Positions 1 to 39,999 of a stretch of 41,845 nt of DNA are shown here, piece by piece; the stretch's first letter is position 1; each line of letters starts with the position of its first letter. Made by a program: the position numbers and the translations under genes. Where the stretch lies: assembly GCA_031258155.1 (NCBI GenBank), contig JAIRNH010000061.1, positions 1 to 41,845 on the forward strand, given 5' to 3'. Origin of the DNA: Helicobacteraceae bacterium. GTDB lineage: Bacteria > Campylobacterota > Campylobacteria > Campylobacterales > SZUA-545. The notes under the pieces are model-generated. The model was not told where the DNA came from, did no database searches, and worked only from the letters and a program-made list of their open reading frames with translations.

Positions 1-3000
1 AGCGGCTATAATGGAGGTTTGGTTGTTTACCCAATTATCGGAGTATTTAGCGGCGTTTGCGCTTAGCGAGGACGATCCGCTTGATCCAATATTGGCGTTT
101 GAGCCTTGGGAGTATCCGAAAGAGGAGTCTTGAAGAGAGATAAGGCTAAAGTCGCCGCCAACCGTTAAGGATATATTGTCTCCGATTAACGAAGCGCCTT
201 TGATTACGGTATCGCCTCCCGAATAAAGCGATAGATCGCCGACTTGTATAAGGCTGTTTTGATAGTAGTTAGAACGATCGGAAGCCATAGAGAAGCCGCC
301 TCCTCCGCTAACGCCGACGCCAGCCGTCCCTACTGAGACGGAAGCCTCTACCTCTTTGGTTTGGGTTGAGGATTGGGCGGCGTTTTTAGAGGCTGATATA
401 TTGATATTATCGACTGCGGCGATAACGGCTTGGTTTGCCGTTAGGACGGAGCCTTCGACGGTTATATCGCCTCCGGCGTTCAGCGACAGAGCGTCGGCGC
501 TTAGCGACGAGGCTTTATTTGAAACCCGCGTTTGTTCCGTAACGGTCTGCGTTCCTTTAACCTCCATAGAGGCGTCGGCGTAGAAGCCGCCGGTTTCGCT
601 AGAAGCGGCGGCTTTAGCTCCGGCGGCGGCGACAGCCGTCGTAGCTTGGGCTAAATTGGCGACGGCGACGGCTATATTGGTTTCATAGAATTTCAAGTCG
701 CTTGCGTTAATTCGCGGATCGCGCTTGGCTTCGTCGTAAGCCCTTTTAGCTTCGTCGACGGCTTTTACGGCTTCAGACAGGTTGGCGACGGCGATATAAG
801 CGTCGTTGTAGCTGTTGCCAACGCCTATTGATAATTTGGTTTTTAGCTCGTTTAACTCCTCTTTTACTATGGCTATCTCTTCGGCGGACAGTATGTTGAT
901 ATTATTGGCGGCGTCGATAGAGAGCGTATTGGCGGCGTCGACGATCGAGCCTAATATGTTAACGTCGGAGCCTGAAACGATATCGATGGCGCCCGCGTTA
1001 ATAACGGAGGCTTTTTCAAACGATGTTTGCGTTTGATAGCTTTTATCCGTTTGCGTTCCCGTAACGCTTATGCTCGCGCGCGAAGAGCTAACCTCTACGC
1101 CGCCGCCCGTAATCGCCGATCGCGACGAAGATTCGCTTGTTTGGGCGGTTTCGGCGGCGGAGGCGATCGTAATATCGTTAAGCGCCGCTATAGATACGCT
1201 CCCGATAGCCTGTATATTAGCCGCCTCTAAAACGACGTTTCCGTCCGATCGCAAAGCAATATTATCGGCGGCGAGATTCGAGGACGAGCGTTCTACGATC
1301 GATCGTCTTTCGGAGTTTGAGCGATCCGTCGTAATATCAAACTCCAAGCCATAAGCGCCGGCGTAAAACGCCGCTCCCGCCACAACGGTTTTCAGAGCGC
1401 CTCTTAACCCCCAATAGCTCTCGTCCCACGACTCGTCGCGCAAGGCGACGCTATTTACGATAAGGTTATCAAGCGAGCGCCCGTCCTCCGATATATAGCC
1501 GCCTTTAGCGTCTGTGAGCGCCGAGCCGGTTTCGTCTTTAGCGACGACGATCGATCCTATGTTCAAATTGTTCTTGGCGTTTAGATTCGCCGCGCTTATA
1601 ATAATGTCGCCTTTAGCGTCTAGCGCGACGTCGTTCGCCCAAATACCGGCTTTGCCTAGACTTTCCGTATAGCTTCCCGTATCGGAACCGCTCTTGGCAA
1701 CGACGTTCTTTTTCTTCGTAACGCTTTGTTCGTATTGAGAATCCACCGCCGAAACGATCGCCAAGTCGCCTCCGGCGATCAAATTGACCTCTTGATCGGC
1801 TTTAATAAAAGAGCCGTAAACGAAAACGCCGTCGGCTATATCGGCGTTCATAGATCCGCCTACGTTCCATTCGGAACCGTCGTTAATCAAAGAACGCTCG
1901 CTCTTAACGGTCTTTTTTGAGGAAGAACCGAGTATGGAACTAGACGAGGAGGATTTTACGGAAGTTTTATCAGTTTCGTTAGCTACGGACGTTATTAACA
2001 ACGAGCCGGCTTGCAGATCGACGTCGCCTCCTACGAGCGCTTTCGTTCCGTAGAACAAAGCGTCGTCGTTTGCCTCTATACGCAGATTGCCTCCTATATT
2101 CAAAGCCGACGTTTCGTTGGTTGTAGAGTTTTCGGTAACGGCATAGCCGTTTTGACCGTAAAAGCGAGAGTTGCGCAACGCGACGGAATCGAATACAACG
2201 CTCTCTTGCGCGGACAGACGCGCGTCGCCGCCCGCGCTTATCGCTCCGGCGCCGTCTATGATCGAACCTCCCGTCATAACGTTTAGAGCGCCTTCAGCCG
2301 TAGTGGAGGCTATTTGCGAAATTACCTCGTAGCGATCTTGTCCGATCGCAAAAGAGTTCGTTGTAGATTGATTTATATAGTCGCCCTGCGCGGAGATTGA
2401 GAGCAAATCGCGCGAGGCTATAGAGCCTCCGACGTTTTTTATGTCGCCGTTTGCGCTAAGATACACGTTTTCGCCTAATATCGACGCGAGCGGATCGGAA
2501 ACGCCGTAAAGCCATGCGAGCGGGTTAACGGAGCTTTGATTTAGTATATCCGAGGCGCTTAAACGAAGCGAGCCGCCGGATTTAATCGTTCCGTTTATGT
2601 TGGCGATCGTTCCGTCGGAAGCGATCGAGAGTCGATCTTCGGCTTTAATAACGCCTGAATTGGAAAGCCCGTCGGCTATAAAAAAATCTACTACGTCAGC
2701 CTCTATGATAGCTCCGTTTTCAATAGCGATACGACCGCGCGAGGCTTCGCCAAGATATACCTTCGGCGCTAAGACGCTCTGTCCGCCTATATAAACGAAC
2801 TCATACCAGATAATATCGTTGGTTAAAACGGCGATCTGTTCGTCGGCAAGCGACACGCCGGGTTGAAGCTCCAAAGCCAACGCCGCCGACACGCCGTTTT
2901 CCAGTAGCGCGTTGAATATCTCCTCGTCGCTTCCTCTAGCTAAATAATCGGGCGACACTCTTCCAATCGCGTCTAAAACCAACCGCTGTTCGACGAGATT

Positions 3001-5484
3001 ATCTCCCAAACGTTTAACGTCCGATTGGGGGACGTAGCCGATTCGATCAAAGAAATACGAAGAGCCGAGCAGTTTATCTACGTCCGTAAACGCCGCGCGA
3101 CTTTCGATTAAATAGTTGCGATCCGCCGTTTGATTACGATTTAGCGCGTATAGAGCGTTTAGATCGCCTTGCTCGATCGCCTTGTCGCCTCCAATTAACG
3201 AGAGCGGATCCACAAAGCCTTCGTTAGCGGCGATTGATTGAATATTGTCCGCGTATTGGCCAAAAGAGAGATCCGAGACGACGGGAATATCCGAAACGTC
3301 CGACGACGCGCCGTTTTCCAGATTGGAAATAGAGCCGCTAATAGTCCCCGCCGCTTGAATATAGGAGTTTATAGAACCGGTTTGAGCGACGGTTTCAAGC
3401 GGAAAGTATTCTTGCCACGTTTTGGTCCTATGTCCGTACTGAACGCATCCGACAACAGGTATTTTGATTTTGCAATATTCTTCTTCTTTGCTTCTGGTTA
3501 CCTCCCCTACAATATACTTGCTTGCATAAAGAGGAAGCGAAATGTTGGCAAACGTTTCTCCTGTCGCGTAAATATCCCCGCCGCTTTGAATATACGAAAG
3601 ATTGTTTGTCAAAGAGCCGACGTTTAACTCCATATCCTCGCTAGATCGTATAACCGATCGCTCGCTTTCGTTTAACGTAGCCGCATCCGCATAAACGCTT
3701 TTTGTTTGATTGAGAATGTATTGGGTCGAATATACGCGATCGTAAGCGTTCGCTCCGGTTAAATATCGGTTGATTAGATCGGAGCTCGCGATATATAACC
3801 CGCCGCCGCTAAATATCCGCGATCCGTCGTTTAATACAAGATCGGCGCGCTCGCCGTCGCGATCTACGCGCAGAGATTGTCGCCCGTATATAACGCTATC
3901 GCCGGTATTGTAAAGATTGACCGCGTTTAGATAAAGATCGCCCTCGGAGTAGAGCGCCGCTCTGTTTTGGTTGTAAAGCGCCAGCGCGTCGATCGTCAGA
4001 TCCTCTTTCGCGGCTAGCGCGTAAGAGTCGTTGACGATTTTATTCGCGCCTTTTATATACAGCGAGCCTAAAGCGGCGTAATCTCTTTTTAGCTCCAGAT
4101 TATTTCCGCTTAATTCAATTACGCTTCGCTTGCCGCCGTTAATCCCGATTCTATCGTCTATCGCGAGATCGCTTCCAAACGAAACGATCAGATCGCGGCT
4201 TGATCGAAACTCGCCCGCATTATCGTGGGTATTCGCCCTTACGTCTAGCAACGCGTCCGCCGCCAAAATACCGCCGTCGTTTTCTAAGCGATCGGTCGAT
4301 ACGACGGTTGCGTCCGCCGCGATAACGCCCCGATTGTTTAGCGCTTGAGTCGCGATTGAGAGCCGATCTAAAGATCCTATCGATCCAACATTGTTTAGCG
4401 CGTCAGATCGTATATCGGTTTTGGTTTCGGATACGATAACGCCCTCGTTATCGATCGTTTCGGCGCTAAGGGCGAGAACGTTTTTGGCTTGAAGCGTCCC
4501 GCTATGCGCGAGCGAGTCGGCGTTTATAACGAGATCGCTAGCGTACAGCGTTCCGTTGGTTTGCGTATCTGTAGCGGCGATTAAGGCGGTTTTAGCGGCG
4601 TAAGCGTCCTTAAGTTGAAGCGAGCCGTCCGCTAGGATCTCAAGATCGTCCGCCAAAGCGACCAACGCCGCGTCGCTTTTAACGCCAAATCCCGCGTCCG
4701 TAGAGACGATTTTAATCGATCCCGCATACATAGAACCTAGCGCCGAAGCGTCGATGGCCAAACCGATTTGGTTGTCCGACGTTTGCGTTAACAGAGAGGT
4801 TATGGCCTTAGTCGCGTAATCAAACTCCTCGTTTCCAGCGTATATATTTATCCGCTTTGATCCTAATATCTCGCCCGTAACGCGATGAACTTTCGCGACT
4901 AAATCTACGCTGTCGGACTCTCTAGCGTCAAGCCCCAAAGCGCCTATTAGCAGCTCTTTGTCTCCCATATTGAAACGCAAATCGTCGAAGCCGGGTTTAG
5001 AGCCGCCTACGATTAGCGAAGCGCGAGAGGCGTTGATAAATCCGCAACCGTCGCAAGTTATGCCGTTTGGATTGGCGATAATCAGTTCGGCCTTAGAACC
5101 AAACACTTCAGCGTAGCCTTTTAAGTCGCTTCGCTTATTGCTTGTTACTTCGTTAAGTATGACTAAGGCGCGATCGTTGGCTTGGAAGTTTGGGTTTGCC
5201 ATAAGAGCGCCGCCCAGCTTTGAAACGCCGAGCTGATCGCTGTTGTTGAATATCGCGCCTTGCTTGTCTATGTTGAAATTGGAATAGGTGTTGCGCGAAA
5301 CGCCGTCGTTGTTTGGTCTGGCTATCTGTATAAGATCGACGCCGTTTTGCGCTTTATCGAGAGAAGTCTTAGAATTTGGATCAAGCTCTATCGACGCGGC
5401 GCGTAGCGGAGCTAACGCTTGAGAAAAGATAAGACATAAGGAGAGCAAAAAAGAGATTTGGGGTTTCGGACGGGTTTTTAGCAT
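1..5484 (-). CDS. Filamentous haemagglutinin-type exoprotein (TpsA/CdiA-like), C-terminus beyond window
   Basis: Large secreted beta-helical surface protein, expected to cross the outer membrane through a TpsB partner and to act in adhesion or contact-dependent inhibition. The minus-strand frame is open from the ATG at 5484 to the window edge (1828 codons, no stop seen). A signal peptide (about residues 1-29) precedes a TPS secretion domain with the hallmark NPNGI at 138-142 and Cys144/Cys147 in the context CDGCGFIN. The rest is hundreds of short degenerate repeats (patterns such as SGGD, L.I.A..I.N.G) typical of a haemagglutinin beta-helix. Start choice: GGAGG lies about 9 nt upstream of the ATG. 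No TpsB gene is in the window; it and any C-terminal toxin and immunity gene would lie to the left. The family assignment is firm; adhesin versus CDI toxin cannot be decided. Confidence 0.93.
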   Translation of the reverse strand, partial: MLKTRPKPQISFLLSLCLIFSQALAPLRAASIELDPNSKTSLDKAQNGVDLIQIARPNNDGVSRNTYSNFNIDKQGAIFNNSDQLGVSKLGGALMANPNFQANDRALVILNEVTSNKRSDLKGYAEVFGSKAELIIANPNGITCDGCGFINASRASLIVGGSKPGFDDLRFNMGDKELLIGALGLDARESDSVDLVAKVHRVTGEILGSKRINIYAGNEEFDYATKAITSLLTQTSDNQIGLAIDASALGSMYAGSIKIVSTDAGFGVKSDAALVALADDLEILADGSLQLKDAYAAKTALIAATDTQTNGTLYASDLVINADSLAHSGTLQAKNVLALSAETIDNEGVIVSETKTDIRSDALNNVGSIGSLDRLSIATQALNNRGVIAADATVVSTDRLENDGGILAADALLDVRANTHDNAGEFRSSRDLIVSFGSDLAIDDRIGINGGKRSVIELSGNNLELKRDYAALGSLYIKGANKIVNDSYALAAKEDLTIDALALYNQNRAALYSEGDLYLNAVNLYNTGDSVIYGRQSLRVDRDGERADLVLNDGSRIFSGGGLYIASSDLINRYLTGANAYDRVYSTQYILNQTKSVYADAATLNESERSVIRSSEDMELNVGSLTNNLSYIQSGGDIYATGETFANISLPLYASKYIVGEVTRSKEEEYCKIKIPVVGCVQYGHRTKTWQEYFPLETVAQTGSINSYIQAAGTISGSISNLENGASSDVSDIPVVSDLSFGQYADNIQSIAANEGFVDPLSLIGGDKAIEQGDLNALYALNRNQTADRNYLIESRAAFTDVDKLLGSSYFFDRIGYVPQSDVKRLGDNLVEQRLVLDAIGRVSPDYLARGSDEEIFNALLENGVSAALALELQPGVSLADEQIAVLTNDIIWYEFVYIGGQSVLAPKVYLGEASRGRIAIENGAIIEADVVDFFIADGLSNSGVIKAEDRLSIASDGTIANINGTIKSGGSLRLSASDILNQSSVNPLAWLYGVSDPLASILGENVYLSANGDIKNVGGSIASRDLLSISAQGDYINQSTTNSFAIGQDRYEVISQIASTTAEGALNVMTGGSIIDGAGAISAGGDARLSAQESVVFDSVALRNSRFYGQNGYAVTENSTTNETSALNIGGNLRIEANDDALFYGTKALVGGDVDLQAGSLLITSVANETDKTSVKSSSSSSILGSSSKKTVKSERSLINDGSEWNVGGSMNADIADGVFVYGSFIKADQEVNLIAGGDLAIVSAVDSQYEQSVTKKKNVVAKSGSDTGSYTESLGKAGIWANDVALDAKGDIIISAANLNAKNNLNIGSIVVAKDETGSALTDAKGGYISEDGRSLDNLIVNSVALRDESWDESYWGLRGALKTVVAGAAFYAGAYGLEFDITTDRSNSERRSIVERSSSNLAADNIALRSDGNVVLEAANIQAIGSVSIAALNDITIASAAETAQTSESSSRSAITGGGVEVSSSRASISVTGTQTDKSYQTQTSFEKASVINAGAIDIVSGSDVNILGSIVDAANTLSIDAANNINILSAEEIAIVKEELNELKTKLSIGVGNSYNDAYIAVANLSEAVKAVDEAKRAYDEAKRDPRINASDLKFYETNIAVAVANLAQATTAVAAAGAKAAASSETGGFYADASMEVKGTQTVTEQTRVSNKASSLSADALSLNAGGDITVEGSVLTANQAVIAAVDNINISASKNAAQSSTQTKEVEASVSVGTAGVGVSGGGGFSMASDRSNYYQNSLIQVGDLSLYSGGDTVIKGASLIGDNISLTVGGDFSLISLQDSSFGYSQGSNANIGSSGSSSLSANAAKYSDNWVNNQTSIIAA

Positions 5485-5523
5485 TTCGCGATTGCCTCCG
5501 GACGACAATATAAAGCGGCGACA

Positions 5524-5529
5524 ATTATA
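5524..5529 (-). promoter_or_regulatory. Probable -10 box of the haemagglutinin gene
   Basis: TATAAT on the minus strand, preceded directly by TG, about 40 nt upstream of the start codon. No good -35 box is visible, as is usual for Campylobacterota sigma-70 promoters. Confidence 0.5.
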
Positions 5530-5884
5530 CAGCAAACAGTTTAAAATCAAGCATAAATGTTGCGGACGGCGGAAGCCGAAATAAAAGCGTTGATTCGTTA
5601 GCGCGGTAAGTCGGGCTTAGCCGTCCGCGTCTAATCCGCTATCGTTTGCGTCGGCAGTCCTTACGGACGCTAAAGCGCTCGTATATTTTTGGAATTGGGA
5701 AGAGGCAGCCTTAAATTGCAAAATAGCAAGGCGCAAAAAGTTAATCGCGCCAGAAGATCGCTCGAAGCTCAAGATAACGCTTGAAATACCGAAAATCGCT
5801 TCGCTGGCTGACGAATGCCTGTTTTAACGTCGGGACTTTTTACGACTATATAGCCCGTTATATCTTCAGAAGCAATCGCTATCC

Positions 5885-36098: not shown

Positions 36099-36831
36099 TT
36101 CGTTATTAGCGGAGTGCGGACTGGACGAAAACAATCCCGATCCGCTTCTGATCGCCCGCGATCTGCCCGACGACGCGGCGCTAATTTGCGCGTTGTTTGC
36201 TTACGGCAACGTCAAGGCGATGATCGCTTTTTTGCGCTCGCTTGATTTTAGCTTGTTAGACTGCGACGAGAACGCGATCAAAGGCAAATTAGTCGATCGC
36301 TATTATCGCTTTCAGAGCGTCGAGGATACGCAAAACGTTTTTATCGCGTTCGCGAAAATGCGCAGAGATAACGTAACGCTCGAACGCCTTTTTACCGAAG
36401 CGTATCAAAAAAACGGTTTTTTATCCGCTCTGTCAAATATGATCGCTATCTTAAAGAGTTACGCGAAAGCGCGGACATTCGGACTTAACTTTCTGTTCTC
36501 CAAGCCGTTTGATCACCGCAACCCAAAAGGGGCGAGCGCGTTAAAGCGCTATCTTATGTTTCTTCGCTGGATGGTTCGCGACGGTTTTCCCGATCTAGGC
36601 AGATGGCGCGGCGTAAAAACTTGCGATCTATTGATCCCGCTAGATACTCATAGTTTTGCGCAGGCTGGCAAACTCGGATTACTGAAACGTAAAAGCGCCG
36701 ATCTGCTTGCCTCTATCGAGCTTACGCAAAAATTAAAAGAGTTCGATCCAGACGATCCCGTTAAATACGATTTCGCGCTCTACCGCTTAGGGCAAAACGG
36801 CGCTAAACGTCAAAAAAGCGCCGCATCATAG
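36082..36831 (+). CDS. TIGR02757 (DUF2400) family protein
   Basis: 249-residue protein of unknown function from a family widespread in Campylobacterota and Bacteroidetes. Supporting segments: DPLLIARDLPDDAALICALFAYGNV near the N-terminus, a central AMIAFLRSL, and a C-terminal RWMVRDGFPDLGRW followed by LLIPLDTHSFAQAGKLGLLKRK; this part recalls helix-hairpin-helix glycosylase-fold proteins. GTG start inside the permease gene (17-nt overlap), hence translational coupling. Its end overlaps the convergent CARF-nuclease gene by 29 nt. Confidence 0.88.
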   Translation: MKPYLDSLLAECGLDENNPDPLLIARDLPDDAALICALFAYGNVKAMIAFLRSLDFSLLDCDENAIKGKLVDRYYRFQSVEDTQNVFIAFAKMRRDNVTLERLFTEAYQKNGFLSALSNMIAILKSYAKARTFGLNFLFSKPFDHRNPKGASALKRYLMFLRWMVRDGFPDLGRWRGVKTCDLLIPLDTHSFAQAGKLGLLKRKSADLLASIELTQKLKEFDPDDPVKYDFALYRLGQNGAKRQKSAAS

Positions 36832-37915
36832 CCGTTAGTTTTTGCGTCTCTAGCGTCGGCTCGTAGTAGATCAAGATATTGTTTAGCTGCGCTCTGGATA
36901 ACGCGCCTTTTTCAAAATTTTTGTGTATGCGTTTACCGCGTTTTAACGCCTCTTTGCTTTCCGTGCTGGCTACGTTAATAATCATTACCTTGCCGTCCGC
37001 GTCCATCTGCTCTAATAGCGCGTCGTATTTGTAGATAAGGTTTTCCCCATCGACGCGATCGCGGAATTTGCACTCGACAATATAGAGATGATTGTTTTTT
37101 ATCATTAAAACGTCAAACTCGTTTTGTATAGTAACGCCGTTAATTGTTTCGTAACATATCTTGGCGCCAGACATAATATCGTCAAAACTTAAACGGCTTA
37201 CAAGATGATATATTTGCTCTTCAAAAAGCTCGCCTAGAATATAGTTAATGTTTATTGGTCGTCCGCGCCGATTTACCGCGCCTATCTTATATAGCGGACG
37301 AATAATCGCCCCGTATAGCTCTTCGTTAATATCCTTTTCCTCCATAACTCGTTTGCGATACTTTTGAAACAGTGAAAAATTATTGGTTATCTCTTGGACA
37401 AACGGTCTTCTTCGTTCCAAGTCGCTCGCGTTTTTCGCCTCGACGATCTGATAACCTTTTGAGATGATATGATCGTCGATCTTCATATTATGTTTTATCG
37501 ACGTTTTTTCTAACCCGTTTATAGTTAAAACGGAGAGATCGTTTGAGTAGCGCCCATATATTAAAAGCCTAGCGCCAACGTCTAGTAACTCTTTAGATAG
37601 CAAGATTGCCATATCCGCCTGCCCGTCGCTAAGATTGATATAGAGTTGATCGGGCGGCGCAAACTGCGCGATCGACGACGATAGTTTGACGATTGATTGA
37701 AGATCGCAGTTTTCAAGACGTATTTCTCGAAGCGTGCATTTAAGGCGGTATTTGCTTCTAAGAGCGCTTAGCCCCCTAACAATTCTAGCCGCGTTTTTAT
37801 CGTCGCGCTCGTTGGCGTTATAGACCAAAACATGCAGGGTGATTTCGGATTTGAACTCAAAAAATACAGGTAAGATCGACGAGTCAAAATCGCCAAGCAA
37901 CGAGATCAAAACCAT
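36803..37915 (-). CDS. Stand-alone Card1/Can2-like CARF-nuclease (DUF1887-like)
   Basis: 370-residue protein with a Rossmann-like N-terminal half resembling a CARF domain (1 to about 150) and a C-terminal PD-(D/E)XK nuclease domain. Nuclease residues: Glu229/Glu232/Glu233 in LGELFEEQIY, Asp268 in NEFDVL and Glu281-x-Lys283 in YIVECKFRD. In type III CRISPR systems such proteins are switched on by cyclic tetra-adenylate and cut nucleic acids. The loop that in Card1 reads TGGTK is SDGQA here (residues 96-100), so ligand binding may differ. No cas gene or array is in the window. It is convergent with, and overlaps, the TIGR02757 gene, and is downstream of groEL behind a strong hairpin. Similarity is from motifs only. 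Confidence 0.72.
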   Translation of the reverse strand: MVLISLLGDFDSSILPVFFEFKSEITLHVLVYNANERDDKNAARIVRGLSALRSKYRLKCTLREIRLENCDLQSIVKLSSSIAQFAPPDQLYINLSDGQADMAILLSKELLDVGARLLIYGRYSNDLSVLTINGLEKTSIKHNMKIDDHIISKGYQIVEAKNASDLERRRPFVQEITNNFSLFQKYRKRVMEEKDINEELYGAIIRPLYKIGAVNRRGRPININYILGELFEEQIYHLVSRLSFDDIMSGAKICYETINGVTIQNEFDVLMIKNNHLYIVECKFRDRVDGENLIYKYDALLEQMDADGKVMIINVASTESKEALKRGKRIHKNFEKGALSRAQLNNILIYYEPTLETQKLTAMMRRFFDV

Positions 37916-38010
37916 GATCGCCCAATCCGCGCGCGCTTTAATTTTTGCCGCGCAAAAACTAAGAAGCCGGCAATCATAACATATTCAAAGAAAGACGCGA
38001 GGAAGGAGCG

Positions 38011-38042
38011 GGGGCGCTAGGCAATCCGCCCCCTAGCGCCCC
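38011..38042. terminator. Strong hairpin downstream of groEL
   Basis: Perfect eleven-base arms GGGGCGCTAGG and CCTAGCGCCCC with a ten-nt loop. The T-rich tail (GTTTTGTT) is on the plus-strand side; for the groEL transcript there is no U run, so it may act mainly as an RNA 3' end or a barrier. Confidence 0.6.
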
Positions 38043-38070: not shown

Positions 38071-39717
<1,647 letters not shown>

Positions 39718-39999
39718 TTATTTGCGAACGCCCAAAACGTCGTCGTTCTTTTCGCTGTTGTTTAACACAACGTAATCTTTACCGTCGATCTTGATCTCGG
39801 TACCCGCGTATTTGCCGAAAACGACTATATCGCCGACGGCGATTTCGCCCTTTTCCTTGATTGCCTTGCTGATCGCCACGACTTTGCCGTCGAGCGGTTT
39901 TTCCTTCGCGTTATCGGGAATGATGATGCCCGAAGCGGTTTTGGTAGGCTCTTCGCTTCTTTCTACAAGAATGCGATAGCCAAGAGGCGTGAATAGCAT
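39718..39999 (-). CDS. groES: Co-chaperonin GroES
   Basis: Seven-subunit lid of the GroEL chamber, 93 aa. The N-terminus [12 protein letters not shown] and the mobile loop [20 protein letters not shown] are clear, as is [27 protein letters not shown] precedes the ATG. First gene of the heat-shock operon with groEL. Confidence 0.98.

Follow-up and report, generated by a model that had tools for sequence, protein, structure and literature searches.

A probable stand-alone CARF–PD-(D/E)XK nuclease with a diverged putative ligand pocket beside groESL in a Helicobacteraceae genome without detected type III CRISPR genes

The gene at positions 36803–37915 (minus strand, ATG to TAG) of the window, i.e., the whole analysed stretch of 41,845 nucleotides of contig JAIRNH010000061.1, encodes a protein of 370 aa for which the assignment of a CARF domain and a PD-(D/E)XK nuclease domain is secure. 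A search for DUF1887/CARF profiles, proposed in the initial annotation, identifies the PADLOC profile CARF4--CARF_PDDEXK (PDLC01891) over residues 1–332 with an E-value of 3e-74 (profile positions 1–291 of 319) and the Pfam profile Card1_endonuc over residues 226–306 with an E-value of 1.6e-9, above the Pfam cut-off. The CARF domain (approximately residues 1–150; 37466–37915, minus strand) is delimited by the PADLOC match, the structural model and the fold matches, and the nuclease domain (approximately residues 200–370; 36806–37318, minus strand) by Pfam PF09002 and the invariant residues E232, D268, E281 and K283 (37220–37222, 37112–37114, 37073–37075 and 37067–37069, respectively, all on the minus strand). 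The catalytic Glu, Asp and E-x-K of the Can2/Card1 (DUF1887) nucleases are thus all present, and the four residues do not vary across a 29-member alignment of relatives, so that the nuclease center is intact, as it had first been read. An AlphaFold2 model built from nine orthologs has the CARF fold, on which the annotation depended, with full-length matches to VC1899 (1xmx, E-value 3.4e-17), Can2 (7bdv, 6.9e-16), Card1 (6wxw) and Cdn1 (9u49); the strong fold matches are limited to these four proteins and Can1. The mean pLDDT of the model is 66.5 and falls below 50 at residues 93–115, the pocket loop, which weighs against the functional interpretation given below. By profile and fold alike, the product is a full-length member of PDLC01891 within the Can2/Card1/VC1899 superfamily, and the initial identification of a Card1/Can2-type CARF nuclease is borne out.

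The neighboring genes, groES, groEL, a recN-like gene, a gene of the TIGR02757 family and an ABC permease gene, are the housekeeping genes they had been taken for, and the nuclease gene shares 29 nt with the TIGR02757-family gene, which is convergent to it. The order groES-groEL-nuclease, with groEL directly upstream of the nuclease gene on the same strand (groES, 39718–39999, and groEL, 38071–39699, both minus strand in the window), is found in six genomes (the window genome G000, G007, G010, G004, G005 and G001), with groES beyond the retrieved stretch on short contigs only; in G009, an additional ORF separates groEL from the nuclease gene, and in G011 and G006 the two genes are not adjacent. 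The gap downstream of groEL contains an 11-bp hairpin (38011–38042, minus strand) that is probably a terminator, although its tail is poor in T; relatives have hairpins in the corresponding position. Closer to the nuclease gene lies a probable promoter of the extended -10 type, TTTGAATATGTTATGATT (37972–37989, minus strand), which was recognized by sequence comparison and has near-identical counterparts in the same gap of G007 and G010. Given the hairpin and the conserved -10-like box, the nuclease gene probably forms a transcription unit of its own, driven by its own promoter rather than by read-through from groESL, and an operon with groESL is unlikely. The window also contains, at positions 1–5550, a gene for a very large hemagglutinin/TpsA-like protein that runs past the contig end.

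Over its 1.1 kb, the nuclease gene has the lowest GC content in the window (42.5% vs 51%), a feature that is frequent in acquired genes and that counts against the interpretation favored below; a dip relative to the surroundings is common to all nine family orthologs checked. A viral or mobile origin was considered and rejected, no relative being found in viral contigs or phage records and the closest plasmid match, from Arcobacter, showing 31% identity.

Profile searches of the window genome assembly (97% complete, 71 contigs) detect no Cas10, RAMP, mCpol or SMODS cyclase (cyclase profiles PF18144 and PF18182), and CorA of the type found in Cas10 loci was not found in this genome either. The only cas1 gene belongs to an operon on another contig (L052, G000:C23) that reads as type I-C by gene order and protein starts rather than by profile. 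Thus, the initial description of the gene as lying outside any CRISPR context holds with respect to type III, including the specific concern that a type III locus might reside elsewhere in the genome, and has to be qualified with respect to these type I-C-like cas genes.

In phylogenetic analysis, the ten orthologs from the bacterial family of the window form a single clade with 100/100 support, and G014, the eleventh sequence from the family, is placed outside this clade. Ortholog identity tracks groEL identity (rho 0.96, 7 genomes). The best explanation is that the gene is vertically inherited and derives from a subfamily whose other members act together with type III CRISPR loci. The dN/dS ratio is 0.07–0.11 (about 0.09) in 10 of the 10 pairs tested within the genus and 0.075 for G004/G005, values that are approximate given that dS is near or above 1 and that indicate purifying selection. 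One could suppose that the gene is a fading remnant drifting to loss, its conservation reflecting only the recent separation of the genomes, and its apparent absence in three family genomes (G008, G002 and G012) might be cited in support. However, two of these (G002 and G012) are incomplete, and in the third (G008, 99% complete) the groEL contig stops 272 nt past groEL, so that the absence is uncertain; furthermore, the dS values, combined with the low dN/dS, and the retention of all catalytic residues in orthologs down to 55% identity make this possibility very improbable.

A census of 399 sampled genomes of the order, in which Cas10 was counted only for PF22335 matches with E-values below 1e-13 and weaker matches (approximately 1e-4 to 1e-9) were taken as GGDEF cyclases and left out, detects a full-length relative in 33 genomes. 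Such a census of genomes with the gene and without type III had been suggested at the outset, and 18 of the 33 indeed lack Cas10; in three cases (G068, G022 and G317) the genome is a single contig that lacks cas1 as well. The relative is nevertheless more common with Cas10 (15 of 86 Cas10-positive genomes vs 18 of 313 others, p = 0.001), so that association with type III is a genuine feature of the subfamily, but not an obligatory one. Within the family, 7 of 11 genomes with the gene, including that of the window, lack Cas10, and the 100% complete genome G004 carries the gene without Cas10, RAMP or cas1. Together with the dN/dS values, these counts uphold the proposal of a solitary and probably functional nuclease. 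Two observations count against it: at least four of the gene-bearing family genomes (G003, G006, G007 and G010) have a type III locus on a different contig, and in G005 a RAMP fragment is located about 11 kb from the nuclease gene. In G010, a second, divergent CARF nuclease gene (L058:720–1802) is located by a HAD-like gene, in addition to the groEL-linked ortholog.

These type III loci suggest an alternative in which the nuclease is a resident effector in trans, kept by the lineage and answering messengers (cyclic oligoadenylates or SAM-AMP) from type III loci that are gained and lost through horizontal transfer. The Cas10 proteins on the other contigs of the four genomes have the GGDD motif, the order-wide enrichment points in the same direction, and it has been proposed that type III loci share effectors (PMC11229360). 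However, the majority of the gene-bearing family genomes have no Cas10; the type III loci inspected in the family possess effectors of their own (a CARF-HEPN Csx1 in G007, CARF-like ORFs in G006 and G003); and pocket residues common to the Cas10-linked sister sequences are lost exactly in the clade of the window (see below). A role in trans therefore appears unlikely.

The initial annotation had suggested a different ligand on the basis of the loop S96-D97-G98-Q99-A100 (37616–37630, minus strand), which replaces the TGGTK loop. The residue calls are correct, the loop aligning with T-G-G-T-K99 of Can2, and the argument built on them fails: relatives adjoining Cas10 in G344, G325, G359, G055 and G028 contain a T-D-G-L-[S/A/V] loop without lysine, the CARF proteins of G366 and G056 also lack the loop lysine in loops of other kinds, and the Cas10 encoded in each of these loci contains the GGDD motif. 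Loss of the lysine is thus subfamily-wide, a clade-specific ligand switch through the loop was rejected, and the loop alone is no argument for a solitary role or a gene-specific ligand.

The conclusion itself receives support from other positions of the CARF domain. Five Cdn1 residues, T9, Q11, T37, K104 and Y124, are reported as cA4 contacts conserved across the clades of the Can2 family (PMC12825302); a profile alignment places L7, D9, N33, A100 and Y120 at these positions, so that only the tyrosine is retained. A column-by-column comparison between the ten clade members and 15 sister sequences reveals 31 CARF columns with a conservation of 80% or more in the sisters. Of these, five (D33, F52, E69, D70 and S71) are lost in the window clade, whereas all five are retained in sister clades B and C, each of which includes orphan genes as well as Cas10-linked ones. 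The window protein contains N33 (37817–37819, minus strand) where 15 of 15 core sister sequences have Asp, aligned with Cdn1 T37, and N69-C70-D71 (37703–37711, minus strand) in place of the E-D-S of the sister clades, beside the E72-E73 position of Cdn1, with E69 aligned with E73. In Cdn1, this acidic pair reads adenine (PMC12825302). Three points weigh against this argument: the pair is also missing from Card1 and Can2 (PMC12825302), the lost columns show no significant excess of known pocket contacts (Fisher p = 0.56), and the alignment at 69–71 is less certain because of a 5-residue insertion in G011.

The altered pocket might instead reflect a relic comparable to VC1899, with gating lost and a weak constitutive nuclease activity or a housekeeping role, e.g., in RNA turnover or DNA repair, remaining. 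The best fold match, VC1899, is likewise an orphan, and its RNase activity is weak and does not depend on cA4 (PMC7969007); among the orthologs of the window protein, evolution is faster in the CARF half than in the nuclease half (dN of about 0.14 vs 0.07); and the gene resides among housekeeping genes. However, G8, F10, D11, S12, N94, S96, D97, R122 and N125 are invariant in the nine closest orthologs, so that the pocket seems to be kept rather than abandoned, and an ungated nuclease is expected to be costly. Loss of gating is accordingly a rather doubtful account, if a slightly better one than the effector in trans.

Taken together, these observations are best compatible with a stand-alone nuclease that has been maintained, is gated by a ligand and does not recognize cA4 as Can2 and Card1 do, a reading to which we assign a probability of roughly one half. 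Such a protein would form a homodimer with a CARF dimer interface that binds a small nucleotide-like ligand other than cA4 read in the Can2/Card1 fashion; ligand binding would close both nuclease domains and trigger metal-dependent cleavage of ssRNA or nicking of DNA, and this activity could lead to dormancy or an abortive response to infection or stress.

Genomic context and domain fusions of the more distant relatives provide a possible clue to the messenger. Among the loci with Cas10 and a CARF gene, those of G325, G344, G359 and G056 include a CorA gene (by Pfam, slightly below the cut-off in G359) and that of G366 includes one recognized by similarity and broken by stops; CorA was not found at the loci of G028 and G055. 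CorA thus occurs in 5 of 7 Cas10-positive genomes with an adjacent CARF gene vs 10 of 79 others (p = 0.0015 without correction for shared ancestry). In G366 (L096:11012–12895) and G066 (L057:2533–4371), the CARF–PD-(D/E)XK protein is itself extended by a C-terminal NrN-like DHH phosphodiesterase domain with a correctly placed DHH motif and 40–43% identity to the NrN half of NrN-CorA; these proteins occupy divergent tree rows, so that inference from them to the clades closest to that of the window is indirect. CorA is a SAM-AMP effector, NrN is a SAM-AMP phosphodiesterase, and nrn-corA fusions occur in A. butzleri (PMC10600005). An Arcobacter plasmid (CP134857.1) carries a type III-B locus with cas10, an NrN-CorA fusion, a WYL regulator and a NERD helicase (L102:1–10086), with a DUF1887 CARF nuclease gene a few genes away; the Arcobacter plasmid relative of the window protein retains D33 and E69-D70-S71. 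Given the CorA neighbors and the NrN-type fusions, the subfamily may sense SAM-AMP. Extending this, it is conceivable, if improbable, that the lysine-less PDLC01891 proteins read SAM-AMP or another messenger distinct from cA4, and that the lineage of the window is an orphaned offshoot that lost the acidic residues and responds to a further signal. In the literature searched, neither the CorA/NrN link of the subfamily nor the clade-wide pocket change was found described.

Other relatives are encoded in distinct contexts. In G068 (L044:7155–13125) and G302 (L047:7599–13571), whose genomes contain no detected Cas10 or RAMP, a CARF nuclease gene is the last in a six-gene non-CRISPR operon, preceded by genes for two unknown proteins, a MotA/ExbB-like protein, a ZorB/MotB-like protein and a membrane SAVED protein (assigned by profiles in L044 and by gene order and similar protein starts in L047). 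This operon resembles a Zorya-like system, so far undescribed, in which the SAVED and CARF proteins would be the receptors, and nothing relevant on CARF or SAVED together with MotAB or Zorya was found in the literature searched. In G120 (L048:88–4770), a CARF nuclease gene is followed by genes for a NERD-plus-kinase protein, a second kinase and a 240-aa unknown protein, which looks like another defence operon. In G056 (L097:1554–4802), a gene for a T7-like single-subunit RNA polymerase (PF00940) directly follows that of a divergent CARF nuclease, and in G361 (L056:8838–10874) a PF00940 polymerase gene is located one small ORF past such a nuclease gene.

If the window clade is still ligand-gated, CARF nucleases can leave CRISPR and become stand-alone sensors that are retained over long periods with a remodeled pocket, and the Cas10-linked sisters together with the ten orthologs constitute a panel for the residues that set the messenger. 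The CorA/NrN link further raises the question whether some CARF proteins read SAM-AMP, which the literature searched assigns to CorA only. Orphan DUF1887/CARF genes have been recognized before (PMC4012209, PMC7969007), so that the novelty is limited to the variant; for a Campylobacter DUF1887 CARF protein, the literature searched contains nothing relevant.

Among the known systems, VC1899 (DUF1887, Vibrio cholerae) resembles the window protein in organization, with a CARF and a PD-(D/E)XK domain, an intact active site, no type III system and a pocket without cA4 contacts (PMC7969007). It differs in its sequence (14% identity in the fold alignment) and in having Arg at the site of Can2 Lys99 where the window protein has Ala; the latter, in addition, belongs to a clade that is conserved across one bacterial family and often occupies a single locus. 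Can2 and Card1 share with it the domain architecture, the catalytic Glu/Asp/E-x-K and the pocket tyrosine, whereas the window genome lacks a type III locus and the protein has lost Lys99 and three other conserved cA4 contacts. Cdn1 of Psychrobacter lutiphocae (9u49, 8z4i) has the same fold, and the sister clades carry an acidic motif at its E72-E73 position; in contrast, the window clade retains neither this motif nor the T37-equivalent Asp, and the Cdn1 gene lies within a type III-B locus (PMC12825302). A further comparison is with the other Campylobacterales members of PDLC01891, which are full-length, 23–34% identical outside the clade, and mostly have a [S/T]DG loop without Lys, but many of which adjoin Cas10 and CorA and most of which retain D33 and E69-D70-S71.
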